Of a stretch of DNA of 64,000 bases, positions 11,822-64,000 are shown piece by piece (the first letter of the stretch is position 1; each line of letters opens with the position of its first letter). The position numbers and the translations under genes were made by a program. The stretch lies in assembly GCF_003627215.1 (NCBI RefSeq), contig NZ_CP032678.1, forward strand, positions 434,001-498,000, in the 5' to 3' direction. The notes below the pieces were generated by a model. It ran no database searches. It was not told where the DNA came from and saw nothing but the letters and a program-made list of their open reading frames with translations. This DNA is from Pseudomonas sp. Leaf58 (lineage in GTDB: Bacteria; Pseudomonadota; Gammaproteobacteria; Pseudomonadales; Pseudomonadaceae).

Positions 11822-12970
11822 TTACAATCCGAGGGCTGTGGACAGCTCTTCTTCGGCGAGCCTCGGGCATTGCTCCAATATCTCACGGGGAAGACCGTGT
11901 GCGGCCAACCCTGTGCTGTCGTTGAACTCCAGGAACCGCTCGATCAGTTGCACACATAACTCTGGGTGCTGGGCGCCGAAGGCCTGACATTGCTTGCTGA
12001 TGAACACCGCAACGACTTTTCCACCCATGATGCTGAAGTCGATGGCAGCGGGAATGCTGCCAGCACTGGCCAAGTGCATGACGATGGCGGACAGCCCGTA
12101 ACGCCCACTGCCGGCATCCTCACAAATGGCGATACGACGGGCAACGGCTTCAGGATCCAGTGTCAGCCCTGCCGCCAGCATGCCTGTAATCAGCTTGTCA
12201 TCGACCACGATCATGCAATATTGATGAAACATGTGTTCTGCATGCTTGACCTGGCCAGCAGTGAACAGCCCCCTGATAACTGCAGGATCCAGCCATCCTC
12301 CATCCAGAAGGTCATCGCGGATATCGCTGTCTGGGTCGCACATGGCCTTCAACGTGTCGCCATGCGTTTCAAAGCCCTTGAGCGCCTGCAGCAGACCTGA
12401 TCGGGTAGCGCCGTGGTCATGAGCGTCCTGGTTATCGTTCAGGCTGTCCCAGGCAGCATGCCGAGCAAACACGTTGAGCAGCTGGGCAGTTTCCGCCAGA
12501 AATCGATTGTCGCGATCGAATTGTTTACCGCGATGCCATTCCAGAAGCCAATCCATGATTCTGCCGACGAGCTGGTAATGGCCGGCTTTACACATCTTCT
12601 CAACCGGAAGGGCCAGTTCATGGGCGCTCCTGAGCTTTTTGCTGTGCAGAAACGACTCGACAAACCGCTCATGCATGGCCAGGGTCGGCGAATCAATGAG
12701 CGCAAGCATTTCAGGGATGGGGTCGAATTCGTTGCAGTAGGCGGTGGCCATAGCGGGCGCCAGTCGGGTGTTGTCCGGCAGATAGTTACCCATGCTGCCG
12801 ACGTAGCTCATCGTGTGTTGCACAAGACCAAGGTGCCCCTCGATGGCGGCGGTGGCCATCACATCCTTGAGCTCACGGTAGGCATGGGTCAGCCGCAGCG
12901 TGCTGCCGTGCTTCACAAAATCTTCAACTTCAGCTTTGGCCTGGTTCAGGCGTTTCGAGAGGGTGTGCAT
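11822..12970 (-). CDS. Unknown protein of the C-terminal DLGL-tag family (382 aa)
   Basis: A soluble, mainly helical protein with no recognised domain. It ends in ELSTALGL, a variant of the shared C-terminal signature h-L-x-x-D-L-G-L found in many proteins of this window; here D is replaced by A. It follows the 367-aa tagged gene at 12992 with a short gap, and both are probably in one operon divergent from the AAA+ gene at 14230. It has an AAGGA ribosome binding site. Weak similarity in layout to its neighbour suggests a duplication. The cas operon lies downstream with its own promoter. Confidence 0.7.
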   Translation of the reverse strand: MHTLSKRLNQAKAEVEDFVKHGSTLRLTHAYRELKDVMATAAIEGHLGLVQHTMSYVGSMGNYLPDNTRLAPAMATAYCNEFDPIPEMLALIDSPTLAMHERFVESFLHSKKLRSAHELALPVEKMCKAGHYQLVGRIMDWLLEWHRGKQFDRDNRFLAETAQLLNVFARHAAWDSLNDNQDAHDHGATRSGLLQALKGFETHGDTLKAMCDPDSDIRDDLLDGGWLDPAVIRGLFTAGQVKHAEHMFHQYCMIVVDDKLITGMLAAGLTLDPEAVARRIAICEDAGSGRYGLSAIVMHLASAGSIPAAIDFSIMGGKVVAVFISKQCQAFGAQHPELCVQLIERFLEFNDSTGLAAHGLPREILEQCPRLAEEELSTALGL

Positions 12971-12991
12971 GAAGGATTGTCCTTGGGTGAC

Positions 12992-14095
12992 CTATAAGCC
13001 CAGATCTGCTTGCAAGCTGCCTTCCAGCAGGGAGGGGTGACGGTTGACGACTGCCTTGGGTAATGGCTTGGCGAAAAAGTGGGTTGCACCAGAACATCCT
13101 TCCAGGAAGCGCACGGCAATTTCGCCGGCCAGGGCAGGAGACTGATCACCATGGTCACGAATCATGGCTCTCATCCGCGCCCCATGGGCCTCCAGGATCT
13201 TGTTGCCAGGATCGACCAGCAGCGGAAACTGCCCTTTGGTGGCCAGGTGCAATTCGATCAAGCCCAGCAGGTAGGTGCCATTTTTTTGCTCGACCGCCCA
13301 GGCTGCATTCTGCTGGCAGGCCTCTCGGTCAGGGAACTTGTTGATAGCGATCATTTCCGCGATCAACACGTCGGAGGTATGGTGCTTGAGGTGAAGCTGA
13401 AACATCTGTTCGGCTAGGGTGTTGACCCCATGGGCATACAGCGCGGCGATCAGGTGCGATTGAAAGTTGCCAGACCAGCGCTGCTTAAGCTGCGTCTCAT
13501 TGGATTGGGCGATGGCCGCCACGATCTTCTGCTCGTGCTTGGCATACACCTGCATGTACAGGCGCTTTTTGTCCTTACTTAGGGCAAGCCAGTCTATTCC
13601 ATGGTTGAATTCGGGCAGCATGTGGGCTGTACTTCGTTGCCCCCGGTATTGCGGCACGGCCTGATCCAGCATGAGATCCATGAGTTTGGCGACCAATGAG
13701 TGGCGCTTGCGATTGATCAGGGCGGCGAAGTACGTACCCACCTTTGTTTCGTGGAACTGCTCAGGATTGGTTTCAAAACCGTGCAGCACCCGCTCATCCA
13801 CTTCCTTGGGGAGCGAGGCCATGTCTTCGACCATGCGGTGATGGGGCACGAATTCCAGCGAATAAAGAGTAAGAAATTCTCGGCGAAGCGGTGCGCCCCA
13901 ATACTTGGTTCGACGGATGGTTTCTTCGATTTCCGCCAGTACCCGCTGCGACGTAATGACATCGCCTTGCAGAATCTGCTGGGAAGCGATGATCTTGGCG
14001 GTTTGTAGTCCGGCCACTAGCCGCGCCGTGTCTTCATGGGTATTGAAGCCCTGGATGTCCTCCATGGCTTGCGCAAGATCATGTTTCCAGTTCAC
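12992..14095 (-). CDS. Unknown protein of the C-terminal DLGL-tag family (367 aa)
   Basis: A helical, soluble protein of unknown function ending in SLQADLGL. Translation starts at a GTG (14095) with GGAG about nine bases upstream; no ATG lies nearby in frame. The body looks like successive amphipathic helices, possibly a helical-repeat scaffold, but I recognise no named repeat. It is the first gene of a minus-strand unit. Its upstream region is shared with the divergent AAA+ ATPase gene and contains the palindrome at 14186-14200, so it may answer to the same regulator as the NAD genes. Confidence 0.72.
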   Translation of the reverse strand: MNWKHDLAQAMEDIQGFNTHEDTARLVAGLQTAKIIASQQILQGDVITSQRVLAEIEETIRRTKYWGAPLRREFLTLYSLEFVPHHRMVEDMASLPKEVDERVLHGFETNPEQFHETKVGTYFAALINRKRHSLVAKLMDLMLDQAVPQYRGQRSTAHMLPEFNHGIDWLALSKDKKRLYMQVYAKHEQKIVAAIAQSNETQLKQRWSGNFQSHLIAALYAHGVNTLAEQMFQLHLKHHTSDVLIAEMIAINKFPDREACQQNAAWAVEQKNGTYLLGLIELHLATKGQFPLLVDPGNKILEAHGARMRAMIRDHGDQSPALAGEIAVRFLEGCSGATHFFAKPLPKAVVNRHPSLLEGSLQADLGL

Positions 14096-14173
14096 GGGGA
14101 GTGTCTCCAGGTGTGAAATACGGTTGCTCTTTGCATTTTACGCGAGGAAGAGGCACCAAGCCTACAGCAGAGC

Positions 14174-14201
14174 TTGTCTATCAAGGTATATCGAGTATAC
14201 T
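14174..14201 (+). promoter_or_regulatory. Promoter with GTATAC-type palindromic operator
   Basis: TTGTCT (14174-14179) and TATACT (14196-14201) with a 16-bp spacer form a likely plus-strand promoter for the AAA+ gene. The spacer and -10 are covered by GTATATcgaGTATAC (14186-14200), a 6-3-6 inverted repeat nearly identical to those upstream of nudix-sspB and pncA-pncB-nadE. A bound regulator would block the -10. Confidence 0.6.
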
Positions 14202-14229
14202 TAAATAATCAATTCCCTGGAGACCCCCC

Positions 14230-15855: not shown

Positions 15856-15902
15856 CTCCTCAGCGGGTACCACTTTTGTGTGGGCAGACAGATCCGACTG
15901 AA

Positions 15903-20390: not shown

Positions 20391-21083
20391 TTAAAGGCCC
20401 AGATCAACCCCGAGCACCGACTCAATCCCCACCTCATTGGCATGCACTTTCATTTCCGGCCACTTCAGGCGCCGGTACGCTTGCGCCATCGCAGCAGAGG
20501 GAAGCAGCGAAATCCCCTTGTCCAACAAGCCAGTCACAACCAGCGCCTCCTTGAGCGTTCCAGCAAAATCCTCGGAGTGCTGCAACCGTTCATCCTCGCC
20601 ACGCAGTGACAGCAGAGTTGTCACGTCGCCAAAGCGCGACGCCCAATCTTCAATGATGTCGACCATGAAGCGCAGCGCTTGATGACGGTTACGCACGGCG
20701 AGAAAGTCATGAAACTCAATCATCATTGAGACGGCTTCACGCTTGACCCTGGGGTTTGAGATCAAGTCGACCATGATCTCCACAAAGGCTTGCGTATCCT
20801 CAGGGATTTTGTCGAAACCAGATCGGGGGATGTCATAGAAAACCGGCGTCTCATTGCAGGCATGACCATCCTTGATCGGCAGCAGCCCCATGTGCCAGGC
20901 AATGTAGAAGGGGGCGTACGCATAGGAAATAGGCCCATCACAGAGCATTTCCTCGGCGAATTCGGGCGGACGGTCATGCATTTGCTGCAGGAAGTCGTGG
21001 CAGCGTGTGAAATACACCATGTTTTGCTTGGTGTGGTAGTAAACGTAGTCGGACAGGGTAGAGTCATGCTGGTCAAGGTTCAT
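20391..21083 (-). CDS. Unknown protein of the C-terminal DLGL-tag family (230 aa)
   Basis: Helical soluble protein of unknown function ending in VLGVDLGL. Its last ~28 residues, beginning YRRLKWPEMK, resemble those of the neighbour at 21080 (YRRMGWREAM...ES-L-x-x-E-L-G-L), so this pair shares a small C-terminal domain in addition to the tag. The start codon overlaps the stop of the upstream gene (21080), indicating translational coupling. The N-terminal half is rich in Tyr, His and Cys. No catalytic motif is recognised. Confidence 0.7.
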   Translation of the reverse strand: MNLDQHDSTLSDYVYYHTKQNMVYFTRCHDFLQQMHDRPPEFAEEMLCDGPISYAYAPFYIAWHMGLLPIKDGHACNETPVFYDIPRSGFDKIPEDTQAFVEIMVDLISNPRVKREAVSMMIEFHDFLAVRNRHQALRFMVDIIEDWASRFGDVTTLLSLRGEDERLQHSEDFAGTLKEALVVTGLLDKGISLLPSAAMAQAYRRLKWPEMKVHANEVGIESVLGVDLGL

Positions 21084-21739
21084 AGGCCTAGCTCCTCGGC
21101 AAGTTGGGATTCGTGATCACTGGCTTTCATGTGTTCCATGGCCTCCCGCCAGCCCATGCGCCGATAAACGGTGCGATTGTCCGCTGCGCTCAGGTGTTCC
21201 CTAAAGTAGGCCCCGCCTGGGTAAGCGTCCTGGATGGCCAGCCGGATGCATTCGGACAGTGCCATTGAAATTGCAAGGTGATCGCCAGGCGCGTGGCCAG
21301 GGTCTGTTGCAGTCTTTAATCCCTTGGTAAGCAGCCGACTGAGTTTCTTTGGCGGCAGCTGAGTGACCAGCTCACCGACAAGGTGTCGGCTGAAGGCCGG
21401 GTGGCTTGTCGCGTAGTAATTGAACGTCACATCCAGCACCCGTTGATAGCGAGCAACCAGGTCGAAGGAAGGTTGCGTCAAACCCAACTTGGCAATATCC
21501 ACCACACGCCCAAGGTTCTTAGACCACAACTCCCCGGACGCCTGATGCACCAACAACAGCAAGTCGGTGTAGATGACGGTGGGTGGTTTTTTCATCAGCT
21601 GCAGAAGGTTTACAGCGAGACCAGGAAAACCCTGGCGGGTGAACTGGGCAACCAGCAGCCTGAAGGTTCGTTCGGATGTGTAATCACTGTGCGGAAAAAC
21701 GATTTCTGCAGTTGGAAAAAGCGCGGGATCTAGGGGCAT
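21080..21739 (-). CDS. Unknown protein of the C-terminal DLGL-tag family (219 aa)
   Basis: Helical soluble protein ending in QLAEELGL, the tag variant with E in place of D. It shares a YRRxxW C-terminal segment with the downstream overlapping gene. It starts at 21739 after a gene-poor stretch that must hold its promoter. No known domain. Confidence 0.68.
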   Translation of the reverse strand: MPLDPALFPTAEIVFPHSDYTSERTFRLLVAQFTRQGFPGLAVNLLQLMKKPPTVIYTDLLLLVHQASGELWSKNLGRVVDIAKLGLTQPSFDLVARYQRVLDVTFNYYATSHPAFSRHLVGELVTQLPPKKLSRLLTKGLKTATDPGHAPGDHLAISMALSECIRLAIQDAYPGGAYFREHLSAADNRTVYRRMGWREAMEHMKASDHESQLAEELGL

Positions 21740-41485: not shown

Positions 41486-41564
41486 TGGTAAGACATGCCG
41501 GAATCGAACCGACGACCTTCCAGGTTGACGACCTGGGTGCTCTACCTAGCTGAGCTAATGTCCT
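41486..41564 (-). tRNA. tRNA with irregular anticodon arm (tentatively Asp, GTC)
   Basis: On the minus strand the acceptor stem is AGGACAT/ATGTCTT with one G-T pair, discriminator A and encoded CCA. T8-A9, a GCTC/GAGC D stem with GG in the loop, and the T arm GTCGG-TTCGATT-CCGGC are all regular. The anticodon region is two bases longer than normal. Stem CCAGG/CCTGG gives loop TCGTCAA, with GTC at the anticodon position but C rather than T at position 33; the alternative pairing leaves a 9-base loop. Identity is therefore uncertain. Confidence 0.75.
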
Positions 41565-45139: not shown

Positions 45140-45907
45140 CTATTTCTCCCAGCCAAGATAGTATTGATGGCGTTTTACGCAGCGTGAGTACTTGGGGTTG
45201 CTGAGCATGACAAGCTCATAACCGTGCTCAGCCTTCGACAGCGCAACCCATACCTGCGAGTCAGGGTAATCAAAAAAGGCCAGTGGCGGTTTGGTATCAA
45301 ATCCATTGCCAAGCTCTGGCTGACGCAGGCCGTGGCCAAGTTTGCCTTCAAATGAGACGACCAGGGGGTCTTTGGCACCCAGGAATTGTGGCGCTTGCTG
45401 GGTCAGCTGACTGATGGTGGACAACCTCGATAGAAACGCCTGAGCGGGATCGCCGAGCACGGTGGCATGAGAAAACGCGTATGCGGCGTCTTCCAGGCCG
45501 CCCTTGGTCTTGCATACGCCGATATAGCCCTGGTCGACCGCCTGCCTGAAAGCGCTTGCGTCAAGTGATCTAAAGAACCCCGATTGGTGCGGAGTCGCTT
45601 TCGATTGAATGACTGCCATCAAAAGACAGCCACCGGGACTGGTTTTGCAGGCTTTCCAGAAGGGTTGTTCTGATCGCGACCATCGTGAGTTTAGAAACGC
45701 GAAATCATCTTCATGGGCATCGAATAACTCGTGCACACCCGCATAGGTCATGGGGTTCTGAATCACCCCGGCTGCAATTTTTGGCGTACTGGTGTTTTTT
45801 TCTGCCTGATCATCGTGAAAGGTAAGCCATAGGAGCACCGCCGAAATTGCAATGGACAGCAGGCTCATGGCGAGGTCACGTCTGTTGCGTTTGTAATTGT
45901 TGCTCAT
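45140..45907 (-). CDS. Unknown membrane-anchored protein (255 aa)
   Basis: A cytoplasmic basic start (MSNNYKRNRRDLA) is followed by one membrane helix (about residues 13-31) and a soluble, probably periplasmic domain with several cysteines (CKTSPGGCLL and VCKTKGG). It is usually hidden inside a long frame joined to the upstream gene, but the upstream tagged gene ends two bases before this ATG in the neighbouring frame, so the two are separate. The tandem paralogue downstream is broken by TAG. No family recognised. Confidence 0.65.
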   Translation of the reverse strand: MSNNYKRNRRDLAMSLLSIAISAVLLWLTFHDDQAEKNTSTPKIAAGVIQNPMTYAGVHELFDAHEDDFAFLNSRWSRSEQPFWKACKTSPGGCLLMAVIQSKATPHQSGFFRSLDASAFRQAVDQGYIGVCKTKGGLEDAAYAFSHATVLGDPAQAFLSRLSTISQLTQQAPQFLGAKDPLVVSFEGKLGHGLRQPELGNGFDTKPPLAFFDYPDSQVWVALSKAEHGYELVMLSNPKYSRCVKRHQYYLGWEK

Positions 45908-45908
45908 G

Positions 45909-47428
45909 CTATAACCCCAAGTCAGCGGCAAGGATGGTCTCGTGTAAGTGCTGGGCAAGCGCTCGATCTGCCCTGGCGTTAACCGAGTGAGGGTCGCTAG
46001 CCGTGCTGCCATAGAGCGCTTGGTTACTAACGCCAGCACGCTTTCGATCACAGCCGGGAACGTTTCCAGCGAGGATTTGGCCCGCTGCAGGTTGGCGTTT
46101 CCACCTGATTCGAGATAATCGGTCACCGCGCTTTTGGCTGCAGCTTCATCAAATAACGCAGAAACCCGCGTGCCCTCCAGAGCCTGGTGCCAGATGCCTG
46201 CCTCCATCATCTGGTTGATTTCGTGCGTAGCGGGGGTGAAGTCCTTTACGCCGTTCACCCAGGCAATGTTACATGTTCCCCACCGTCTGACGATGTACCG
46301 GGGGTCAAACAAGCCGTACCTGTTTCCGAGTGCTTTCAGGGCGCATTTCCCAAAGGTGCCATCGCTGCCATCCCGAGGTATGAAGGCCATGTCTGCCAGG
46401 AACCCCCCTGCTGTTAGCCGTCGCTCCCCTGAATTTTGCAGCATGTGTTTGTAGTCAAAGCCCAGCAAATCTGCCGCTACCAGTGAAAAATCAGCCCAAT
46501 GCTCAGGGTGGTTCCACAGTAGGGACATGAGGGTGCTTTTCATGCCGGCATCATAGGCTTCTGGCGCCCCGATATTGAAACTTCCAGGCTCATCGGCAAT
46601 CTGCCGGAAAACGAAATCCAGTGTCTCCCTGACCGTCTCGGTGACACTGACAATGTCCTGACCAAACAGGACGGCCATCGGCGCAATCACCCGCACCAAG
46701 GCGTAAAGGTAGGGGCTGACGACCAAATTCTTCGGCATCAGCTTGCCTAGGTGCCAGGGAATGTCCTGCTGACAGAACGCAACCAGGCCTGCCTGGCGCT
46801 GCTCAAACGGCAAGGACAGGTCAACCAGAGCCTGGATGACACCGACAGGCAGGTTATGAGCGCTGCTGTGAGGCATTTCAAGTCCGCAGACATGGGCGAT
46901 TGCACTGTAAACGATCAGCGCGGATGAAGAGGGTCGATCGCTGCTGTAGAACGATCGCCCTGCCTGATCTTTCATGCCGTCAATCATTTGCTTGCGGTAC
47001 TGACCGTGGTTAAGCCAGTCTTCGACCAGACTCTTTTGTCCTGGAGACTTACCCAGAATCAGCGGTGCAACTTGCTCGATCAGCCCCTTGAGATCGACGT
47101 CTGGAAACTGCAGCTGGTTGCGCTGAAGGTTCAGCGATCCACACAGGTCGCCAAGACTGGTGGCTGTTCGTCCGTTGAACAAATGCCCTTCCAGATGGGT
47201 GCCGGTGCTGGCGAGGACAAGGCCGAGCAGCCCTTCGGCGCTGTGCTTGTAAGCGGCATTCAGCAGCCTGCCGGATTGGTTGTACACCAGGACGTCGTCA
47301 AATTCTTCACGTTCACCGGGGTAGTGGTTCTGCTCGTAGAACGCCCTGAGCTCTCGCCCAAGAGGGCCCTTGAGGGCCTTCTCGGGGACAGAAAAAGGCC
47401 ACGGCGCGACCTTTGTCTTTGTTGTCAT
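45909..47428 (-). CDS. DLGL-tag family protein with a frameshift (about 506 aa)
   Basis: A large helical soluble protein starting MTTKTKVAPWPF at an ATG that overlaps the stop of the previous gene (ATGA). As written, the frame continues into the next gene. Near 46028-46036 the coding character moves to the neighbouring frame, which reads ALYGSTASDPHSVNARADRA and ends in ETILAADLGL with a stop at 45911-45909, just before the next ATG. One missing base explains this. The restored protein carries the family signature. No domain recognised. Confidence 0.65.
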
Positions 47429-48402
47429 GCCTCGCACTCCAGGATGACGTTGCGCGCCTCCTCACCGAGCTCAGCATGGCCCAGCAACGTCTCGCGCATG
47501 CCATCGTCAAGCTCACGCCCTTCCATGAGGATCAGCGGGAACTGGTTGAGCGCCGCCAGGAAGAGTTTGGCGTCTTCCATGTCCTCGTCAAACGGCAGGG
47601 CTGGATCGACCTTGCACAGCAATTCCAGGATTTCCGGAGCCTCCTCGTACGTGAGGTCATGGTGCGCCAGGGCATCTTCAATCAAGCTCAACTCGCCCGT
47701 ACAGTCGTACACCATGCCGCGCTCATTGCTGGCGTGTGGGCGAACCAGCACCTGGATGCCGAAATCGCTGAGCAGCAGGAAGATTTTTCCGAGGCTTTTC
47801 AATTTACCGTAAAAGCCCTTTCCACGGCTGTCGAGCCACTGCGGATTGCCGAGCAGTGCGGCAGTCTCCTCGATCGCCTGCGGGTCGCAGACACTCAACC
47901 CGTCGTGTTCAAGGATGAGCGTGCGCTCGAAGACTTCCTCGGCGTCCAGGCTGGCCAGGAGCACATTGGAGATCGTATTGAACGACTCAGCGTGCTCGGC
48001 CAGCACCAGGTTCACCTCGCGCAGCGACTGGTACGCGAGAATATCGCGTTGCTCAAGCGGCAGGTACTGGCTTTTGACACTGAACGCCAGCAGGGTCTTC
48101 CTGGCAGCCAGCCCCTGACGGTCGAAGTCCAGGTCGAAGACACGTTCCGGGGTCTGGCGGTTCATCCGGTTGAGGATCCAGCGCAGGTATTTGCCTTCGC
48201 GGGTGGGATCACAGCTGCACAGAAACACCTTGAACGCTTCCAGATCACCCTGGAACAGGTTCAGGCCCTGGCAGGTAGCATGGGCGCGCTCGACATCGGC
48301 GTGCATGTGCGACAGCCGACGCATGGGTTTCGAGTGGGGGTCGCCCACGGCAGGCAGAACGCTGGCTTTCACGGTTTGTTCTTGTGTATTGCGGGTAGCC
48401 AT
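47425..48402 (-). CDS. Unknown protein (325 aa)
   Basis: A soluble, acidic protein with no known domain. An ACAGGAGA ribosome binding site lies before the ATG at 48402, and the intergenic stretch 48403-48469 provides room for a promoter. It ends in ILECEA, without the tag, and its stop overlaps the start of the frameshifted tagged gene, so the two are coupled. Confidence 0.62.
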   Translation of the reverse strand: MATRNTQEQTVKASVLPAVGDPHSKPMRRLSHMHADVERAHATCQGLNLFQGDLEAFKVFLCSCDPTREGKYLRWILNRMNRQTPERVFDLDFDRQGLAARKTLLAFSVKSQYLPLEQRDILAYQSLREVNLVLAEHAESFNTISNVLLASLDAEEVFERTLILEHDGLSVCDPQAIEETAALLGNPQWLDSRGKGFYGKLKSLGKIFLLLSDFGIQVLVRPHASNERGMVYDCTGELSLIEDALAHHDLTYEEAPEILELLCKVDPALPFDEDMEDAKLFLAALNQFPLILMEGRELDDGMRETLLGHAELGEEARNVILECEA

Positions 48403-48469: not shown

Positions 48470-49408
48470 CTACAAACCGAGATCCTGGCTCAGCGAAGCT
48501 TCCAGCATTTGCTCCTGGGTAAGGGCATGGGTATAGGCCCTCAAATGCCCGCCCGCCGCTACCAGTTTGCGTCCGAGTCCGAGGTGGGCTTCGCTGGTTG
48601 TCATTTGTGCCAACGCCTCAGGGGTCGCGCAGTGGGCGGCATACCACCGCTGAGCTTTGTCTAATGACAACACCGCCAGCCCACTCAGATCGAATTCGTA
48701 GCTTTTCGAGACATGATGGTAGAAGCTGTAGGCGTGAAACTTTTCCTCCTGGGTGAGGATGCGCGGCCCCTTCACCGTTTCCCAGGCCGCCAGAGTGTCG
48801 CGCTCATTGCCCTTAGGGGGGAAGTGCTGGAGGAGTACATCCATCAGCAGTGCGTGTAAACGAACCGTTGCGCAGTCCGAATCCTGGAGCAAATCCAGCG
48901 CGAAATAGGCCGCGCCGAGCGCTTCGAGACGATCGCTAGCTATTTGGCCACGAACATGCCTTCCAAACACCACGGCTTCGAGTTTTTCTGGAGAAACGGT
49001 GTGCGTGCTGAGCAACCCGGAAAGCCTGAACGCGGTTTTTTTCGCACTCTCGAAGCTGAGCAAACGGTCGAACAGTGCGTCGTTGTAGTCAAGGCCTTGA
49101 AATGCGCTCAACGCCCTGGTGAACTCACGGGTTGACTTGGTGACGATGGGAACCGGATCGATCAGGGCGTGATCGATGAGCTTCAGCCGCAATGGCTCGT
49201 CGGCCATGATGCGCGCCAGCACATAATTTTCCCCTGTGGTGTGAAAGCTCAAGGCCCCGAAACTCATCACCAGCGATGCATCCGAAAAGGGCGTGGTGGA
49301 CTCACCCAGGTGTTCCAATATTCGATCGGTGAGCTCCGGGTAACCATCACGATCAGAGGCGCTACGCAGCTCCTTTCTGACCTGCTTGATCCAGTCTTTC
49401 ATCGTCAC
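48470..49408 (-). CDS. Unknown protein of the C-terminal DLGL-tag family (312 aa)
   Basis: Helical soluble protein ending in SLSQDLGL. It is the last gene of a four-gene minus-strand operon (52027 to 48470). Its start overlaps the stop of the 365-aa gene (ATGA). All four products of this operon end in the tag, so the whole operon may be dedicated to one process. No catalytic motif is visible. Confidence 0.72.
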   Translation of the reverse strand: MTMKDWIKQVRKELRSASDRDGYPELTDRILEHLGESTTPFSDASLVMSFGALSFHTTGENYVLARIMADEPLRLKLIDHALIDPVPIVTKSTREFTRALSAFQGLDYNDALFDRLLSFESAKKTAFRLSGLLSTHTVSPEKLEAVVFGRHVRGQIASDRLEALGAAYFALDLLQDSDCATVRLHALLMDVLLQHFPPKGNERDTLAAWETVKGPRILTQEEKFHAYSFYHHVSKSYEFDLSGLAVLSLDKAQRWYAAHCATPEALAQMTTSEAHLGLGRKLVAAGGHLRAYTHALTQEQMLEASLSQDLGL

Positions 49409-50502
49409 AACCCCAGATCCGCTTCAAGCTGGTAGGTTCTGATAGCCTCCGGCGCCACATTCAGCAGTTCCTGCAGGTCGAATTTCCCCGAGTCCCGCGC
49501 ATACTGGAAGTCTTTGACGGTTCTGACCAAGGAGCCGATGTCTGTGGTTGAGAGCAGCGTATTGTCGGTCAGGTTCCGGAACAGGATGTTGGCAACCATG
49601 GGCGATTCAATATGATCCAGCAGCCTGCCCATGAGTTCGACAGTGGTGGCCGTTTTCATTTGCTCTGGCTTCAAGGCCTTTGGCAGCAGGGCGCACACGC
49701 TTCGGGCCAACAGCCTGGGCTCATCTGGACTGCACGTGCGCGCCAGGTGCAAAGCCCATTCGCGACGATCACCGTCCTTCAGCGAGATGATGCCCTTGCC
49801 GACAAATTTCCGAGCTTCGAACTCGACAATCCTGGCGAGGTATTCGTGATCATAGTCGGCAGTCCCCTGGCAGAGGGACAGAATCGCCTTGTCAGGCTTG
49901 CCCTGGGAAAACTGGGCATCGATGACTTCTCGATTGCGCAGGCGCATGACGTCACTGGAAACGCCCAGGGACTGCAGCAGCTTGTAATTGAATTCGAAGC
50001 ACCCTGGGTACCTGGCGCCTGGCACGGCGTGCTCGCCAGGGTTGTAGGTCATGAAGCTTTCCAGCAGCAGCGTCCGTGCGTCTGGCACCAGCTTCAGAAT
50101 CATCTCATAGCAAGCCCCCAGAAATTTTTCCGTTTGGTTGTGCCTGACCTGTTTCGCCCTATCGTCCTGCGCGCTGGCATCATCCACCTGTATCAGGAGT
50201 TGCTTCACCCGCATGCCGTAGAAATGCTCGATGCCCTCCGGGCGGGTTGCGGCCTCGGCGAGCAATAGGTGGCAGGCCGCGTTGATCGAGTCGGCTAGGA
50301 AACACCCGTCCGGCTTGTAGTGAGCAACCAGGATTGCCTGTGCAATGATGGGAGACTCGGTTTCGATCATCGCTGCCACCAGGTAGTGGTCAATGTTCTT
50401 GTCCCGAAGCTCGGCTGGATCGCGGCCAATGGGCGTGCGCAGCAAGTTCTCAGCGGCGGCATAGTCACATGTGACAAGGGTGGTGCGCAGATCGGAATTC
50501 AC
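49405..50502 (-). CDS. Unknown protein of the C-terminal DLGL-tag family (365 aa)
   Basis: Helical protein ending in QLEADLGL. It is a clear paralogue of the 363-aa gene in the same operon: both have a LLESFMTYNP/IRDNFLSYDP segment near the middle, then R-E-V-I/L-D-x-Q-x-x-Q-G, then YLARIVE/YLAKVAE. The start overlaps the previous stop. No membrane segment or known domain. Confidence 0.73.
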   Translation of the reverse strand: MNSDLRTTLVTCDYAAAENLLRTPIGRDPAELRDKNIDHYLVAAMIETESPIIAQAILVAHYKPDGCFLADSINAACHLLLAEAATRPEGIEHFYGMRVKQLLIQVDDASAQDDRAKQVRHNQTEKFLGACYEMILKLVPDARTLLLESFMTYNPGEHAVPGARYPGCFEFNYKLLQSLGVSSDVMRLRNREVIDAQFSQGKPDKAILSLCQGTADYDHEYLARIVEFEARKFVGKGIISLKDGDRREWALHLARTCSPDEPRLLARSVCALLPKALKPEQMKTATTVELMGRLLDHIESPMVANILFRNLTDNTLLSTTDIGSLVRTVKDFQYARDSGKFDLQELLNVAPEAIRTYQLEADLGL

Positions 50503-50906
50503 AGACCAAGCTCCTGCTCATCACGCTTGAGATGGCTTCGATCAGGCGCCAGGCTTCTCAGCACAGCCCCGGCACTCAAGCCCACCGATATTTCTTCAAG
50601 CTCCTGGTAGGTCAGGTCTTTGCAGTCGCGCTCCACAATACCTGCGATTTCATCGCGACTGCCGTAGTAGATGAAGGTGTGGTCGACAATCTTCGCGCTG
50701 CAGCCCTTGGTGACCGGGGCTTTCTGGTAGATGCCGGTGGCCATCGCCTCGTAGACGGTGTGCTCAGACTCCAGTTCCTCGCCTTTCTGGCGATAGGCGT
50801 ACTCATGTGTGGTTAGTTTCACGGACTCACCACGCTCAAAAGCCCTATCGATGGCTTTGCACAGTCGAGCGATGGCGGCGGATCTGGTGGTTTGTAACGG
50901 CTGCAT
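50499..50906 (-). CDS. Small protein of the C-terminal DLGL-tag family (135 aa)
   Basis: The smallest tagged member, ending in RDEQELGL, the most deviant tag of the set. It is a compact mixed helix/strand protein (IVDHTFIYYGSRDEIAGIVE). It lies between the two long paralogues in the operon and overlaps the next start by four bases. Function unknown. Confidence 0.65.
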   Translation of the reverse strand: MQPLQTTRSAAIARLCKAIDRAFERGESVKLTTHEYAYRQKGEELESEHTVYEAMATGIYQKAPVTKGCSAKIVDHTFIYYGSRDEIAGIVERDCKDLTYQELEEISVGLSAGAVLRSLAPDRSHLKRDEQELGL

Positions 50907-50935: not shown

Positions 50936-52027
50936 TTAAAGCCCTATATCGCGTTCCAGTCGTCCGGCTTGCACGGTTTCAGGGGCGTGTGGCAAAAGGT
51001 CGAGCAGCTTGAAGTTGCTGTGACGCACGGCAAAATCAAGCTCCTTGTTGGTGTTCAAGCGTGGGCCAATCTGTTCGGCGGTTAGTATGTTGCGCTGATA
51101 CAAGGCAGCATGGCGCTTCGAGTTGTTGGTCGAGGTATGCTGGATGAAGTCCAGCAACAGGTCGCCTCCAGATCTGCCCGGCAGCAAGGACGGATCCATG
51201 CCGGCGATGGCCTTGATGCATAGGCCAATGTCCTCCACCTGGTCAACCTGCGCATTGGCGATCAAAGCATCACCCAAGACGCGCAGGTGGTTGTTGTTGC
51301 TCTGCTGCATCATTACTCTGGGTTCATTGGGCTTGTAATAGTGCTCGGCCACCTTGGCCAGGTAGGTCATGTCGAATTCAGGTTGTCCTGAGAGCAGCAA
51401 GACCAATTGCGCATCCGCAGCGCCTTGAGCAAGCTGCACGTCCAAGACCTCCCGCGCCCGATCGCGTATGAGCTGATTATCAAGCCCAATGTAATTCATG
51501 ATGATCAGCATTCTGCCATCGATCCGCCCAAGGCTTTGGGACATGGATGTCAGATCCATCGGGTCATAGGACAGGAAGTTGTCGCGGATCCACTGTCTGG
51601 ACTCGGGTGCTTTCTGGAACATCGTGCGATACAGCAGCCGGGTCAGGTACTCTCGCACTGATGCCCCTGGGTTGGTGCTGGTGAAATGATTGAGCTCGTC
51701 ATACAGGGTGCGCCCGCATTCCACGGGGAAATGTTCAGCAGCATCTGAGCTGTTGTACAGGGTCGTGGTGATATCCACGGTCTGGTTCAACAAGCGAAGC
51801 GAGAGGGTGTCGGGCGCCAGTTGTAGTAGCCTCAGCACGGCCCTGGCGAGAATCGGGGTTTTGCGCTCCAGGAGTACATTGGTGATGTATTCCGGCTTCT
51901 CGGTATCATGGATGTGCGCAATGGCGCCTTCGAAATCCTGCTCAAAAACCCATTCAATGTCGGGGTAGAAAAGCTTTTCCAGCGCGGCGTCCAGGCGGGT
52001 TGCAAATTGAAAGGGGGATTGGGTCAT
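50936..52027 (-). CDS. Unknown protein of the C-terminal DLGL-tag family (363 aa)
   Basis: First gene of the four-gene tagged operon, ending in RLERDIGL. Paralogue of the 365-aa gene at 49405, with shared central motifs. It is preceded by a good promoter-like pair at 52049-52078. Helical, soluble, no known domain. Confidence 0.72.
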   Translation of the reverse strand: MTQSPFQFATRLDAALEKLFYPDIEWVFEQDFEGAIAHIHDTEKPEYITNVLLERKTPILARAVLRLLQLAPDTLSLRLLNQTVDITTTLYNSSDAAEHFPVECGRTLYDELNHFTSTNPGASVREYLTRLLYRTMFQKAPESRQWIRDNFLSYDPMDLTSMSQSLGRIDGRMLIIMNYIGLDNQLIRDRAREVLDVQLAQGAADAQLVLLLSGQPEFDMTYLAKVAEHYYKPNEPRVMMQQSNNNHLRVLGDALIANAQVDQVEDIGLCIKAIAGMDPSLLPGRSGGDLLLDFIQHTSTNNSKRHAALYQRNILTAEQIGPRLNTNKELDFAVRHSNFKLLDLLPHAPETVQAGRLERDIGL

Positions 52028-52733: not shown

Positions 52734-53135
52734 TTAGTTCGAAACGACCACTGAGAGTGCCGGTCGACCCTTGCGGGCAAGGTGCGCAGGGTCAATCGGC
52801 GCTTGGTTCGACACCTCGAATTCGAGCCCCTCCTTGGTTTCCCCGGAAAAACACGATTCCACAGCCTCCGCTGGAAAGCTCACTGACGTGTGCACGCTAC
52901 TGAACGAGGCATAGAACGAAATTACCCCTGTCTCAACATTGATCGACAGTCCTTGCACGCATTTGGGGGAAATATTGAAGCGCATGCGATCTGCCTGGCT
53001 GGCGAACTGGGTTGGAGCACGAACACCTGGGTAATCAGTGCGCACAACCAGGTTGGGGCTTTGGTTCAGTGAGACAATCCATTCGTAGAGCGCCCTGATC
53101 GAGAATACCTTGAAACTGGGCGAAGGTGTGTTCAT
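52734..53135 (-). CDS. sspB: SspB-like ClpXP adaptor
   Basis: A 133-aa homologue of stringent starvation protein B, which delivers ssrA-tagged and other substrates to ClpXP. Family features in order: RALYEWIVSLNQSPNLVV, TDYPGVRAPTQFA, FNISPKCVQGLSI and SFYASFSSVHTSVSFPAEAV. The flexible tail ends with ARKGRPALSVVVSN, matching the ClpX-docking XB motif (GRPALRVVK in E. coli). The middle tail is shorter than in chromosomal SspB. It follows the Nudix gene by 11 bp in one operon under a palindromic operator. A second, mobile SspB could redirect ClpXP to new substrates. Confidence 0.88.
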   Translation of the reverse strand: MNTPSPSFKVFSIRALYEWIVSLNQSPNLVVRTDYPGVRAPTQFASQADRMRFNISPKCVQGLSINVETGVISFYASFSSVHTSVSFPAEAVESCFSGETKEGLEFEVSNQAPIDPAHLARKGRPALSVVVSN

Positions 53136-53689: not shown

Positions 53690-55348
53690 TCAAAGACCCA
53701 GATCACTTTCCAGGTGGTTTGCCTGCTGGGCTGGGGTCATTTTTTCAACCAATCGGCGCGGGTTGTCATGGTCACCGACCAGGGCTGCGACTTCCGCCAA
53801 GGAAAGTGCAACATGCTCCGAGGCCTGGTCGAGCATGTCATGGGCCACCATTCGCAACAGTCGCCCTGGATCGAGGTCGCGGAAAGTTCTGAGCAGGCTA
53901 TCCGCAGGGAAGGCAAGCAATGGCTCTGCTTCGCCTTGCGAGGCGAATTTAAGATCCCGCGTCACAGCCATGTTCAGATAGTCGCGCAGTGTCTGCTTGA
54001 AAATCTCCAGTGACGGGGTCTTGCCATCCACCTGCAAACCAATCCCGTAAGGGTTCATGAGACTGGGTTTCCCCAGCGTGACCGTAACACCGCCGTGATC
54101 AAATTGCGTGGACACCGCCGCAGGCGGTACCGTTTGGGCAACCATCGCTTCCAGTGCATAGCTGACCACCTTGTAGGCCTTGAAGAAGCGGTCATGACCG
54201 GTCTTTTCGAGGAAATACGCTGGTTGCCGCTCAATCGCCAGCGGCGCTGCCCAGGGCATGCTGTTTTTCCAGTCGAACTCAGAAAAGACAGCATCGATGA
54301 CAGCCCTACTCACGCCGTCTGGCATCCCCTCTGGGATCAGCATTAGGAAACTGGCCTCGACCATGGCGCGGCTCTTTTCCCAATTACCAGGGTTGAACAC
54401 CCCGCGAGTGGGCAGAGCATGGCAAGCGCCAAAGGTCAGCATCTTCTCTTGCTCAGCCGGCGCCAGGTCTTGGAACAAGGCGGCCAGTTGCGCTGGCATA
54501 GGGCTCAACATCCACGCCAGGAGGTATCGGTCTTCCTGCTCGATGCCAATGACACGCGACACCCTGTCCATTATAGCCTCGGGATCTGGCTTAAGCCCAC
54601 GCTCGACCATAGCGCGAATCGCGGCAAAGGGCATCTCATAGGCCGCCCGAAGCTCTGCGCTCACATAGTCATCCCATTCTAGGTGGTTGACAAACTCCTG
54701 GTGTTCTTCGAGCCATGACAACATCAGTGGCGAAGCCTTGGGGTGCAGATACAGCCCCCAATTCAGATCAGGCCTTAGGCCTTTTTCCTGCATGTGAGGT
54801 ACGCAATTCGACAGGTACTGCAGGATGACACGCTCGTCGTTCGTGGTCTTCACATGATCCATGATGGTACAAATCAGGTCGCAATGGTAGAGTGAGAAAT
54901 AGGTCGAGCAGCCGACGTCATCATCGCTCCAAGCGAGCGCGTCCAGGCCCAGGCGCCCATCGTACTGCTCCAGGATCTTCATTCTGAGCGCAGCGTCCTG
55001 GTCAGAGAGCAGCCCAAACACCGATTGGCTTTCACACTTCATATAGGCTGCTGAGCGCTCTTTGACAAGCTCCAGGAAGGTGATGCCTTGCTGTTGGAGG
55101 GCGCCAACAGCAGCGGGATCGTCCGTTAGCAATTGACGCAAGCAGGGGATGAAGGTTTCAATCTCCATCTTGGCCATGAACGGGACGAAACGCATGCTTT
55201 CCCGCTGGGTGCGGATCATCAGGCACCGCATGAGGTCAGCCACATCACAGTAGTCACCTGTGACGCCCAAAGATGCAAGACGTTCGTGTCCACTGCTCAG
55301 ATTGATCTTCTGTTTCAGATTCTGAAAAAAACGCTGCAAGGGAGTCAT
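53690..55348 (-). CDS. Unknown protein of the C-terminal DLGL-tag family (552 aa)
   Basis: A large helical protein ending in HLESDLGL. It is a paralogue of the next upstream gene (55397-57045): both start M-T/S-P-L-Q-x-F-F, share NWGLYLHPKASP/NWGVYLHPNATP and QPAYFLE/QPAYFLD, and end EKMTPAQQ/EKMTPGQQ before the tag. The start at 55348 is chosen from that alignment; the frame is open nine codons further up to a GTG. The 3' end lies close to the nudix promoter. No enzymatic motif recognised. Confidence 0.74.
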   Translation of the reverse strand: MTPLQRFFQNLKQKINLSSGHERLASLGVTGDYCDVADLMRCLMIRTQRESMRFVPFMAKMEIETFIPCLRQLLTDDPAAVGALQQQGITFLELVKERSAAYMKCESQSVFGLLSDQDAALRMKILEQYDGRLGLDALAWSDDDVGCSTYFSLYHCDLICTIMDHVKTTNDERVILQYLSNCVPHMQEKGLRPDLNWGLYLHPKASPLMLSWLEEHQEFVNHLEWDDYVSAELRAAYEMPFAAIRAMVERGLKPDPEAIMDRVSRVIGIEQEDRYLLAWMLSPMPAQLAALFQDLAPAEQEKMLTFGACHALPTRGVFNPGNWEKSRAMVEASFLMLIPEGMPDGVSRAVIDAVFSEFDWKNSMPWAAPLAIERQPAYFLEKTGHDRFFKAYKVVSYALEAMVAQTVPPAAVSTQFDHGGVTVTLGKPSLMNPYGIGLQVDGKTPSLEIFKQTLRDYLNMAVTRDLKFASQGEAEPLLAFPADSLLRTFRDLDPGRLLRMVAHDMLDQASEHVALSLAEVAALVGDHDNPRRLVEKMTPAQQANHLESDLGL

Positions 55349-55396
55349 GGGTGAGTCTGCCTGATGAAGAAACACGTTAGCAAAATGGCCTGTTGA

Positions 55397-57045
55397 TCAC
55401 AAACCCAGGTCTCTTTCGAGCACGGCAGCCTGCTGCCCTGGGGTCATTTTCTCAATGACCGCATGAGGGAAATCGACTCCGGTGAGTAAAGGCTTGAGGC
55501 TCTTCAAGCTCAAGGCAACCTGCACACCCGTCTTATCAAGAAGGTCGTGAATCACCAGGTTCAGGCAGTCCTTCTCCTTCACGCTCTGGAAGTAGTCCTT
55601 GAGAACAGCCTTGATCGGGCGGGGCTTTGATCCGACCTGCCCGCGCTGGATAACCTCAAACGCCATCGCTTGCTGCACGGTGTGATCGAGTGCTGTCCTG
55701 ATGGTGTCAAACAGCGGTTCAAGGTTGACCAGGGCGCCCTGATGTTTGAGCAGAATGCCCTGGCTATTCCGGGTCGACTGCTGACCGATGGTGATCGACA
55801 CATCACCATGCGCAAGCTCAGGTTCTGGGCGCTCAGGAACCGAGGTGTACGCGCCGATTGCCTTCACCGTTTTGACAATGAACCGGAAGGCATCCTGGGC
55901 ATCCAGCTTGGCCAACTGATCCAGAAAATACGCCGGCTGAGCCTGGACAATAGGGGTGACCACCAGGAGCTTTCATCGGAGTTCCGGCGCGCCAGGTCAT
56001 GGTCAATCGCGGCTCGGGCAAAGCGCTCTGACAGGCCTGCCTGGGCGAGGCTCAGGAAACAGCTTTCCACCATGCCTCGCTTGAGCTCGCTCTGCCCAGG
56101 CACATAGGAGCCGGGCAGCGGCAGGCGGTTTTTGAAACCAAACAGCAACAGCTCCTGTTGCTCGTCAGCATCCAGGGCGTCGTACATCGCTTTGAAGGCT
56201 GCTGGATCAGGGCATAGCAACCAGCCCAGCTTTACCTGATCCTGTGCGGAGACGTCGAGTGCCTGTGCGATACGCTCAACAGCCTGGCGGACATCCACGG
56301 CAACGCCCCTGGACATCAAGAAGGCAAGGGTGGCTGCAGGTCTTGCGTAGGCGTTTTTAAGCGTGGCGCTGATCAGCGGGCTGTCTGTCATCAGGCTGTT
56401 TGGTCGCTGGTTCGCTGGAATCCAAGCCTGGATGTAAGGGGTGGCATTGGGGTGCAGGTATACGCCCCAGTTGATTTCCGGGGTGTACCCAGTGGCGCGG
56501 CAGCTCGCCAGGTAGTCAATGACAGCCTGTTCGTCGGTATCGTCCTGTACCGCTTCCACGATCTTCACGATCAAATCTGTGTGGTAGCCTTCTTCGTTGG
56601 ACGAGCATCCCAGCTTATGCGCACTGAACATCATCGCATTCAAGCCCTGGCGGGCATCGTAGTGCTTCCAGAAGGCCGCCTTGAGGGTTCGATCGGTATC
56701 GGCAAGGTGCGCGAACAATGAGCGCCCTGCGGTAAGTTGGTCGAAAAAGCTGGTTTGAGCCGCTCGCTCCAGAAAGGATATGCCGTAGGCCTGCAATTCG
56801 GGAATGGCTTCCGGGGCGTTCAACAGCAGCGACCTAAGAAAATTCATCGTCCAATTCGCCGCTTCCATCTTCTCCTTGGGAATGAACCGAAGCTCACTCG
56901 GCGGGTACTCCATGAGCATGCACTTGATCAGGTCGGCGGCATCGCGGTAGTCACCCTGCTCAACGCAGTGCAGTGCGTCGCCGCCACCTTTTTGAAATTC
57001 AATGGTTGCCCGCACCGCCGAGAAGAATACCTGAAGTGGGCTCAT
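55397..57045 (-). CDS. DLGL-tag family protein with a frameshift (about 549 aa)
   Basis: Paralogue of the gene at 53690. The first frame (start MSPLQVFF, with AAGGA upstream) stops matching after SSWWSP, and the match continues in the neighbouring frame at PIVQAQPAYFL. One added base at the run of four G at 55953-55956 restores a full-length protein that aligns with the paralogue throughout and ends in VLERDLGL. As written it yields a truncated ~393-aa product plus an orphan 188-aa frame. The C-terminal tag is thus present only in the second frame. Confidence 0.7.
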
Positions 57046-57184
57046 GCCATTGCGTCCTTCGCCAGGTTGTTTCCAGACGATGGTTTGGGGTGGGGTCAAT
57101 GCTTGGCGCAGGCTCATGATGCAGTTCCGCAGTCGGTTTTCTTCATGATACCGAGCCCCGGCAAATCAATTCACCCCTAAATGC

Positions 57185-59266: not shown

Positions 59267-59268
59267 GA

Positions 59269-59895: not shown

Positions 59896-59900
59896 CGTCG

Positions 59901-59923
59901 TTGTCTCCTGACCATGGAGACAA
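59901..59923 (-). promoter_or_regulatory. Hairpin sequestering the pncA ribosome binding site
   Basis: On the minus strand TTGTCTCC (59923-59916) pairs perfectly with GGAGACAA (59908-59901) around a 7-base loop. GGAG is the pncA Shine-Dalgarno sequence, nine bases before the ATG. The 8-bp stem would reduce translation unless opened. Confidence 0.55.
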
Positions 59924-59973
59924 TGTACACCCGGTATACTTAATGCGCAAGCACTTTCGTATACCGAGTATAT
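59922..59973 (-). promoter_or_regulatory. Promoter with two palindromic operators, pncA-pncB-nadE
   Basis: TTGCGC (59950-59945) and TACATT (59927-59922) on the minus strand are 17 bp apart. Operator 1, GTACACccgGTATAC (59925-59939), covers the -10. Operator 2, GTATACcgaGTATAT (59959-59973), lies just upstream of the -35. Both belong to the 6-3-6 motif seen at 14186 and 53648. Centres are 34 bp apart, about three helical turns. Confidence 0.65.
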
Positions 59974-59978
59974 GTAGA

Positions 59979-61612: not shown

Positions 61613-61661
61613 ACTGGACTCCTTTTCTGCATTCAGCGTACCACGGGGCAGCGATGGCTTT

Positions 61662-62519: not shown

Positions 62520-62733
62520 GGGTTTTCACCTCTTGTTGTTTTTATGGCAAGGCACCACGACCCCGCAGAAATTATCTGAAGGATACGAATATGGATAACT
62601 TAAATCAAATCAATATTCATCAAAACGACTGATTTTTTAACGAAAAGCGACGAAATTGATTGGTCTTTACTTGTTGCTCCAAGGGCCTCCCAGGTACCAT
62701 TTGTCTATACGTTGATTAGCGGTGAGCAGCATT

Positions 62734-63900
62734 ATGTCGCCATCCCACAGGGTACTCAAATCATTGCTGGAAGACTTCACGGATTCGGTCACACAGGAAG
62801 TCAATGGCACCTGGGTGCTGACTGCAAAAGCGTCTGAGCGTGTCGTGGCGAAGGCGCCTGTGTATCGCCCCATGATTGCCGCCTGGTTTGCCGAAGGGGG
62901 CAAGGCGCTGGATTTTGAATTCTATAACCTGCTCAATATCCTCAATGACGTTAATCCTACTCAGAATTTGCCCTCGGTAAATTTCTGCTTCGCCCTGATC
63001 GCCGGGCAATTGGTCAGCGCCGCCACCCCAAAAGAAGTGATCGCGGCCATCACCGGGCATTTCGACAAGGAGTTGTCCTGCGGTCTTTCCATCGCGGGCG
63101 TGGAGATACGACAGCACCTGGGTGAAAACCACCCTCTGTTGATACAAGACCTGCGCACCGATGCGCTGGATCTCAAGGCGCGCCGGGGCTGGCTGGATGC
63201 CAACGGACTGTGGGGGCGCCACCTGATGGAGTATGCGCTGAAGTATGACGATGCCGGCGCTGCTGAGGTCTACATCCAGCACGCTAGCAGTGATAACCTG
63301 CTGTCAAACCTGTATGTGGCGCAAGTGGGGAAGTGTCCGTCTATCCGTATGTTATTGCTTGGCCAGGAAGAGGCGATGCCAGAAGAACTGTTGCGGCGCC
63401 TGGAGATGGCCCTGTCCAATACCGATCCAGATCCAAAGCGTCTTCAGGCCCTCGACTTCGATCCGCGCATATCGCCTGAATTCATCCGTGACAACGCCGA
63501 GCGACTGCAAGGGATCATGAATGCCTTCACCGGTTGGGGCATGGACAACGCCATCACCCGCAAGATGCTGCTGTGTCTGGACGATGCCGGCTTTGAGTGG
63601 AGCGACTACCTGGCAGACCTAACGCTGAAAACTCGCCTTTCTACGCACATGGAGGCGATGAATCCCATCAAGGTGGCGATGGTACGGTGCCTGGAGGCCA
63701 TGGGCGATCGCCCGCAGCTCGCCGGCATCTTCGCCTGCCTGTCACGGCAACTCAAGCCGATCAAGCTGCTCCAGCACATCAAGGAGCATGACGCACTGCT
63801 GCTCAGGGCCTATCAGTGCAGCGGGGATCAGGGTTTCCTACGTTGTGTGTCCAACCCTGACCTGCTGGATGATACATTGACGGAAGACCTGGGACTTTGA
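62734..63900 (+). CDS. Unknown protein of the C-terminal DLGL-tag family (388 aa)
   Basis: Helical soluble plus-strand member ending in TLTEDLGL. The ATG at 62734 with GGTGAG upstream is preferred to the GTG four codons earlier. Successive ~35-residue helical units in the second half suggest a repeat scaffold. Its stop is immediately followed by the stop of a convergent tagged gene. No known domain. Confidence 0.7.
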   Translation: MSPSHRVLKSLLEDFTDSVTQEVNGTWVLTAKASERVVAKAPVYRPMIAAWFAEGGKALDFEFYNLLNILNDVNPTQNLPSVNFCFALIAGQLVSAATPKEVIAAITGHFDKELSCGLSIAGVEIRQHLGENHPLLIQDLRTDALDLKARRGWLDANGLWGRHLMEYALKYDDAGAAEVYIQHASSDNLLSNLYVAQVGKCPSIRMLLLGQEEAMPEELLRRLEMALSNTDPDPKRLQALDFDPRISPEFIRDNAERLQGIMNAFTGWGMDNAITRKMLLCLDDAGFEWSDYLADLTLKTRLSTHMEAMNPIKVAMVRCLEAMGDRPQLAGIFACLSRQLKPIKLLQHIKEHDALLLRAYQCSGDQGFLRCVSNPDLLDDTLTEDLGL

Positions 63901-64000
63901 TCACAAGCCCAGATCAAGTTCAAGCAGCATGGAACGCCCAACTTCATTGACGATTTCCAGGTGGTTGTGATTCAGAACCCCGATGGAAATCAGCTTTTGG
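63901..64000 (-). CDS. 3' end of another DLGL-tag family gene (partial)
   Basis: The last 33 codons of a minus-strand gene cut by the window edge. They read VNEVGRSMLLELDLGL at the C-terminus, a full match to the signature. The gene converges on the tagged plus-strand gene with no gap between stop codons. Confidence 0.65.
   Translation of the reverse strand, partial: QKLISIGVLNHNHLEIVNEVGRSMLLELDLGL

Follow-up and report, generated by a model that had tools for sequence, protein, structure and literature searches.

Why should so many proteins with dissimilar bodies, encoded on both strands of one stretch of Pseudomonas DNA, end in nearly the same residues, DLGL? The stretch of 64,000 nucleotides analysed here (the window) covers positions 434001 to 498000 of C2 (904,163 bp), a contig that represents a Pseudomonas megaplasmid of the pMPPla107 family; the genome's other contig, the chromosome C1 (5,431,558 bp), is about six-fold larger. 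An earlier note on this DNA had taken the shared C-terminus for a signal read in trans, for sorting, assembly or degradation, and had called for a scan of the whole genome and of related megaplasmids. The results given below suggest that the last ~14 residues would act as an uncleaved C-terminal address tag, with an LGL-type tail preceded by a short helical stretch (from -14 to roughly -4, counting from the C-terminus).

Open reading frames (ORFs) of at least 80 amino acids (aa) were chosen mechanically and greedily on C2, giving a set of 982. The motif [DE][LIM]GL closes 117 of these, where its frequency inside the ORFs predicts 0.15; for the longer form Lxx[DE][LIM]GL the numbers are 114 observed and 0.03 expected. 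A DNA pattern for the tag matched at 60 sites in the 904 kb of C2 and at 5 in the 5.43 Mb of C1, and its reversed form, used as a control, matched 12 times in the whole genome. A TGG following the final codon also satisfies the pattern; matches with a true stop codon number 59 on C2 and 3 on C1. Likewise, none of 191 ORFs sampled on C1 carries the C-terminal motif; they come from ten 20-kb pieces, four of which had been picked for holding a DNA-pattern match. The genome-wide scan thus shows a huge enrichment, and on the plasmid only.

A looser tagged set on C2 comprises 145 ORFs, or 143 after cleaning; the latter occupy 18.7% of C2 and have a median length of 399 aa, compared with 208 aa for the rest. 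The logo of the 145 sequences shows E at -14 (59 sequences), E at -10 (64), L at -7 (141), E at -6 (54), D (108) or E (27) at -4, L at -3 (126) and L at -1 (131), the G at -2 (145/145) being a consequence of how the set was selected. The motif spans about 14 residues, with weak conservation out to about -30 and the strongest constraint at the free C-terminus. Proline and glycine are rare between -12 and -5 (4.4% vs 10.0%), which is helix-like. Tagged genes are clustered on the map, with 49 adjacent same-strand pairs against 12.5, and a crude hydropathy test found transmembrane-like segments in 11 of the 143 tagged ORFs and in 203 of 845 others.

The closest named relative found for C2 is the Pseudomonas megaplasmid pMPPla107 (NZ_CP031226.1, 971,889 bp). 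Relatives of DotH occur on three other megaplasmids, namely pMPPla107, pPL1 of P. silesiensis (1,168,067 bp) and FeN3W (909,734 bp), with identities of 80, 61 and 59% among the three, and a core set of 185 genes is common to all four plasmids. The tag was found on each of the three relatives in a spelling, or dialect, of its own. pMPPla107 has [DE][LIM]GL at the end of 155 of its 1037 ORFs (165 loose members), and the spelling is R at -11 (100), D at -10 (111), F, L or M at -7, G or A at -6 and D at -4 (159), followed by LGL. The corresponding count on pPL1 is 69 of 1322 ORFs against 0.15 expected (89 loose members), with L at -14 (51), G at -10 (53), F at -7 (87/89) and S at -6 (47) preceding DLGL. 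FeN3W showed no excess of DLGL by the DNA pattern (7 matches vs 9 for controls); most of its homologues of tagged bodies nevertheless end like [KR][KR]xxhxx[DE][LF]x[LI]. The FeN3W spelling has K or R at -11 and -10, I at -7, S at -6 and then [DE][LF]x[LI]. A pattern composed after these ends had been seen, [KR][KR]xx[LIVMFAY]xx[DESGN][LFMI]x[LIMF], closes 56 of 919 FeN3W ORFs, against 0.06 expected.

Where a family is present on each of the four plasmids, its tails come in four spellings, for example LAEHVLGGELGL (C2), FRDAFIGADLGL (pMPPla107), IKRAILSEGLSI (FeN3W) and AQGALFSADLGL (pPL1). In a leave-one-out test, tails were assigned to their own plasmid in 137/145 cases for C2, 155/165 for pMPPla107, 66/67 for pPL1 (members drawn from 280 kb) and 64/64 for FeN3W, the last score arising partly by construction. 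The stretches that carry replication genes and those of the type IVB secretion system (T4BSS) hold few or no tagged genes.

The dialects also separate orthologous genes. Reciprocal best hits on pMPPla107 were obtained for 66 tagged C2 ORFs, at a median identity of 25% with the tails trimmed, and both members carry their own plasmid's dialect in 60 of these 66 pairs, although the tested tails had contributed to the models and non-members account for a few of the pairs. A strict set consists of the 45 C2-pMPPla107 pairs whose match scores higher, in both plasmids, than any match to a tagged paralogue on the same plasmid; here gene order is kept (rho 0.93) and the median body identity is again 25%. 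With the tested tails excluded from the models, both members of 37 of the 45 strict pairs are in the dialect of their own plasmid, and in the other 8 only one member is; scoring of -16 to -5 alone gives 39 pairs with both members in their own dialect, 5 with one and 1 with neither. The largest differences between C2 and pMPPla107 were seen for F, M or I at -7 (0/45 vs 29/45, p = 4e-12) and D at -10 (1/45 vs 29/45, p = 9e-11), accompanied by G or A at -6 (11 vs 38 of 45) and E at -14 (19 vs 2), whereas E at -10 did not differ significantly (21 vs 13 of 45). Dialects in orthologues argue against mere descent, a test that had not been foreseen in the earlier note.

Codon entropy at positions -4 to -1 of the tag is the same as in the bodies. 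Because synonymous codons in the tag are thus unconstrained, the tags have not been copied as DNA; each tail has therefore evolved separately and been kept by selection on the protein. Moreover, 61 of 82 DLGL 12-mers on C2 and 102 of 147 on pMPPla107 are distinct. Homogenisation by gene conversion or by a mobile cassette is ruled out by this codon diversity together with the mostly distinct 12-mers, and recent expansion within a plasmid is ruled out as the source of the dialects for the 45 strict pairs, which outscore their paralogues and keep their order. The simplest account of the dialects would be selection by a common plasmid-encoded reader. Each of the four megaplasmids would place the tag on about 60-165 fast-evolving proteins, and a plasmid-encoded partner would read it in trans, its drift between plasmids pulling the tags of each into one dialect. 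The proposal that the tail is a signal of this general type is strongly supported by the plasmid-only enrichment and by the dialects.

The earlier note had reported at least 16 tagged genes between 11822 and 64000 of the window. We located 14 ORFs, among them the genes of all ten tails that it had cited as examples. Their lengths (135-561 aa) and their occurrence on both strands are as it had described; Leu at -7, which it had placed in 15 of 16 members, is indeed nearly general, but in 13 of 14. The tagged ORFs are as follows, in window coordinates.

11822-12970, minus strand: tagged protein of 382 aa, ending in LAEEELSTALGL, with A in place of D at -4.
12992-14095, minus strand: tagged protein of 367 aa, ending in SLQADLGL.
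20391-21083, minus strand: tagged protein of 230 aa, ending in VLGVDLGL.
21080-21739, minus strand: tagged protein of 219 aa, ending in QLAEELGL; 4-base overlap with 20391-21083.
32997-34262, minus strand: tagged protein of 421 aa, ending in VLEDDLGL; member of cluster c001, within the largest remote-homology supercluster.
41809-43041, plus strand: tagged protein of 410 aa, ending in ILCQDLGL; 29 homologues.
48470-49408, minus strand: tagged protein of 312 aa, ending in SLSQDLGL.
49405-50502, minus strand: tagged protein of 365 aa, ending in QLEADLGL.
50499-50906, minus strand: weak member of 135 aa, ending in DEQELGL, the one tail without Leu at -7.
50936-52027, minus strand: tagged protein of 363 aa, ending in RLERDIGL; paralogue of 49405-50502 at 21% identity.
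53690-55375, minus strand: tagged protein of 561 aa, ending in HLESDLGL.
55397-55963, minus strand: tagged 3' piece of 188 aa, ending in VLERDLGL.
62722-63900, plus strand: tagged protein of 392 aa, ending in TLTEDLGL; 62734 is an in-frame start within it.
63901-64000, minus strand: 3' end of a tagged protein ending in LLELDLGL, whose ORF (63901-64899, 332 aa) runs beyond the window.

The stop codons of the last two ORFs lie back to back. ORF 55864-57117 overlaps the piece at 55397-55963 and probably holds its 5' part, with a body resembling that of 53690-55375; a tagged gene at 55397-57117 thus appears to be split by a frameshift, and similar splits may exist at C2 358804-360383, 498902-501323 and 708931-710528. 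In addition, window 45140-47437 (minus strand) holds the untagged C2 orthologue of a tagged family, a 765-aa ORF ending in YYLGWEK; its orthologues on the three other plasmids measure 489-513 aa and are all tagged.

What are the bodies that carry the tag? A Pfam scan covering 125 of 131 tagged proteins (of the other six, 3 cross a 20-kb piece boundary and 3 fell to the residue limit) gave a single clear match, to TerD (1.8e-8), and weak matches to two further families, with one tagged member each (E 0.002 and 0.003). The earlier statement that they show no known domain is therefore accurate for nearly all the proteins scanned, TerD and the two weak matches being exceptions. The bodies had also been called unrelated-looking. 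Profile comparison of 38 clusters with at least 3 members (202 proteins) joined 9 clusters, with 75 proteins, at E<1e-3 and left 24 other superclusters, 25 in total; a jackhmmer search with 310 C2 and pMPPla107 members gave 101 components, one of them with 82 members and 46 of them singletons, and phmmer on the four-plasmid set gave 220 clusters, 135 of them single. That description thus holds only in part: 25 superclusters remain, and a large share of the proteins forms a single diverged superfamily.

This superfamily, in both the profile (75/202) and the jackhmmer (82/310) analyses, is a point in favour of a quite different explanation, in which the motif is the conserved last helix of a very old, diverged helical superfamily and has a structural role without any partner. 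Structure models point partly in the same direction. AlphaFold2 models of 41809-43041 (predicted local distance difference test score, pLDDT, 89.5) and 49405-50502 (pLDDT 79.7) are all-helical, with last helices at residues 397-407 (the LGL end following it) and 352-362, respectively, and both place -14 to -4 within the final helix. In both, helices of about 10, 7 and 11 residues follow one another in that order ahead of the tail, and the two families are unlinked at E<1e-3, cluster c016 standing alone; a terminal helical module common to tagged bodies is thus possible on these models. The model of 41809-43041 gave no convincing match to solved folds and a weak resemblance to repeat-type solenoids. 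The weak conservation out to about -30 also agrees with a structural helix, as does the rarity of tagged bodies without a tag: untagged ORFs resembling them number 10 on C2 and none on pMPPla107, and of the ten, four end in the variants DLAL, DLNL and DLSL (twice), while several others adjoin a tagged piece, as if frameshifted.

A structural helix should, however, vary by gene, yet orthologues at 25% identity switch spelling by plasmid; furthermore, the most tightly constrained letters lie at the free C-terminus, and 25 superclusters are left from the 38 clusters. We therefore regard a purely structural last helix as improbable. For a single homologous family, which the earlier note had named as an alternative, the profile comparison gives a divided picture, with one supercluster of 75 of the 202 clustered proteins beside 24 others. 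The bodies evolve fast: median best-match identity between C2 and pMPPla107 is 25% for 76 tagged ORFs and 47% for 482 untagged ones, rising to 52% for the 266 untagged genes also shared with FeN3W, which are a more conserved set.

The partner and its job are what we infer. In the account that we favour, the tag would recruit proteins to the plasmid's own Dot/Icm-like T4BSS via the DotL/DotM coupling complex, and the tagged proteins would be cargo, effector-like or recipient-conditioning, exported on cell contact or conjugation. By analogy with known T4BSS substrates we put forward tentatively, as something short of probable, that the coupling complex reads the tag and that the tagged proteins are exported. 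A DotL-like coupling ATPase and DotM are encoded on C2, with orthologues in all four plasmids; The annotation of pMPPla107 includes DotA, DotD, DotG, DotH and DotI, and that of FeN3W includes Dot genes and IcmT. T4BSS substrates have been described as having C-terminal acidic/hydrophobic signals that are read by a coupling complex with DotM and IcmSW (PMC5802825, PMC11602083). The charge of the tag itself varies: acidic residues are preferred at -14, -10, -6 and -4 in C2, the preference is mixed in pMPPla107, and -11 and -10 are basic in FeN3W. The scarcity of tagged genes in the replication and T4BSS stretches, their clustering on the map, their fast evolution and their general lack of transmembrane-like segments also count for this account.

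Several observations weigh against export by the T4BSS. A DotM mutant left the transfer of several E-block effectors undiminished in one study (PMC11602083), and the FeN3W dialect is basic at -11 and -10, unlike E-block signals. Identity between C2 and pMPPla107 is high for DotL (79%) and DotM (71%), and a charge shift in DotM matching the change of dialect from C2 to FeN3W was not seen (z -0.31, 137th of 185 core proteins) in a crude, whole-protein test whose expectation is our own rather than a literature-defined feature. IcmS, IcmW and DotN were not identified. A distant Vibrio T4BSS megaplasmid lacks the motif in 455 sampled ORFs, shows no excess of the DNA pattern (1 match vs 5 for controls) and, among the same 455 ORFs, gave no blastp homologues of tagged C2 bodies. 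Finally, co-occurrence of the T4BSS with the tag is weak evidence, because 185 genes are common to all four plasmids.

The main rival to export is an intracellular hub: the tag would dock its clients, within the donor, onto some other plasmid-encoded scaffold, chaperone, filament or compartment. Such a hub would explain the tag, its enrichment, the dialects and the concerted switch in orthologues without export; the two all-helical models, the first with its weak solenoid resemblance, agree with it, and the 185 shared core genes include many of unidentified kind. No candidate stands out, however, and fast-evolving bodies that differ between plasmids are more like cargo than like machine parts, so that we consider a hub unlikely. 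A PDZ receptor was searched for with the single model PF13180, which gave 5 matches, all on C1 and none on C2.

The earlier note had favoured testing a proteolytic or remodelling signal, given two AAA+ ATPases and an SspB adaptor on the same replicon. No particular pair of ATPases was recognised as the one meant. The adaptor is real:

52734-53135, minus strand: SspB homologue of 133 aa (Pfam 6.2e-10), a candidate reader of the tag, though not the favoured one.

It has the substrate domain and a conserved ClpX-docking tail of RPxLxVV type (GRPALSVV). In the degradation scheme, the plasmid SspB would bind -14 to -6 and host ClpXP would take the hydrophobic C-terminus, in an ssrA-like manner. The positions that distinguish the dialects fall near the stretch of ssrA contacted by SspB, which counts for this scheme. 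SspB is present on C2, pMPPla107 and FeN3W, the other two being 40% and 33-35% identical to that of C2, below the core median of 52%. On pPL1, which is tagged, neither Pfam nor a 3-row profile nor an unfiltered hmmsearch detected SspB (best E 0.058); pPL1 may use the host SspB or carry a very diverged one.

A sufficient client for SspB is also at hand. All four plasmids encode a transfer-messenger RNA (tmRNA) whose tag, of AN..LAA form, differs from plasmid to plasmid (ANDNAFEGARLAA, ANNDNFDAPVALAA, ANDESFALAA and ANDNQFALAA), and the plasmid would keep SspB because it has its own tmRNA tag. The C2 tmRNA gene, which is Rfam-confirmed, lies outside the window at C2:765169-765563 (minus strand) and encodes ANDNAFEGARLAA; the chromosome has a tmRNA besides. 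Logos of the xDLGL ends, set against the plasmid tmRNA tags, lack both the AN start and the LAA end. The three matches to PF10431 are all chromosomal, which leaves C2 without an HSP100 unfoldase by this model, and tagged genes making up ~19% of the plasmid would be a costly load if made for destruction. The adaptor thus stands while the proteolytic idea is weakened, and we think degradation distinctly unlikely as the purpose of the tag. Proteins closely related to the window SspB and to 49405-50502 are assigned to a 4.3-Mb contig of P. taiwanensis, which may be a megaplasmid fused to a chromosome.

As to the setting, C2 has replication, repair and export genes of its own, including RecA, ribonucleotide reductase, SecA, the DotL-like ATPase, DotM and a ParM-like protein, and the window also encodes RecD2, an RNB-domain ribonuclease, DsbD, NAPRTase and NAD synthase. 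Outside the window, at C2:885153-898400, the SecA homologue is clustered with DotL, DotM, a 167-aa protein and the ParM-like protein, with orthologues on all four plasmids in the same order. A PARP-domain protein with a WGR domain (C2:826657-827970) and a Ro60/TROVE-type protein (681259-682860) both have counterparts on pMPPla107. C2 and its sisters carry a nearly complete private tRNA set: 46 genes covering all 20 amino acids on C2 (for example at C2 701-704, 511-518 and 836-838 kb, and a tRNA-Asp at 41486-41564 of the window), and 41-55 genes for 19 or 20 amino acids on each sister.

Taken further, the tag may belong to a private addressing system in which the C-termini of about 60-165 dark proteins of a plasmid serve as a postcode for a dedicated, plasmid-encoded reader, the two drifting together and both the reader and the tagged class being of no known kind; we regard this as conceivable, but lean somewhat against it. 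If it were true, sister plasmids would be mutually unintelligible, and each could tell its own proteome from those of the host and of rival megaplasmids. About 1 in 7 C2 proteins (about 143, on 18.7% of the DNA), many of no known function, become a single class, and the dialects offer a set of natural tag-reader pairs that may be orthogonal to one another. Were the tag a T4BSS signal, the cargo repertoires would approach in number that of Legionella, put at over 300 (PMC5802825), in other Pseudomonas settings and possibly with export during conjugation.

An address tag as such is of a known kind; the novelty, to judge from our searches of the open-licence literature, lies in the scale reached on a single replicon and in the concerted, plasmid-specific dialects. 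Like the plasmid tag, Dot/Icm substrates have an uncleaved C-terminal signal, with a helical or acidic stretch and hydrophobic residues, which many proteins, from scores up to hundreds, carry in a cell that has DotL and DotM genes. The plasmid tag, known here from sequence, is far stricter (DLGL being dominant on three plasmids), has plasmid-specific dialects and is basic at -11 and -10 in FeN3W, whereas E-block signals are acidic. With the ssrA/SspB/ClpXP system it shares a short C-terminal peptide whose inner part could touch an adaptor, hydrophobic last residues and a plasmid SspB on three of four plasmids; in contrast to ssrA, it is encoded in the genes themselves, without the AN start or LAA end, on plasmids that have true tmRNA tags besides. 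Encapsulin cargo peptides and peroxisomal targeting signal 1 (PTS1) likewise bring many unrelated clients to one receptor through one short C-terminal peptide, as proposed here, but the plasmid tag differs from both in having dialects between sister replicons.

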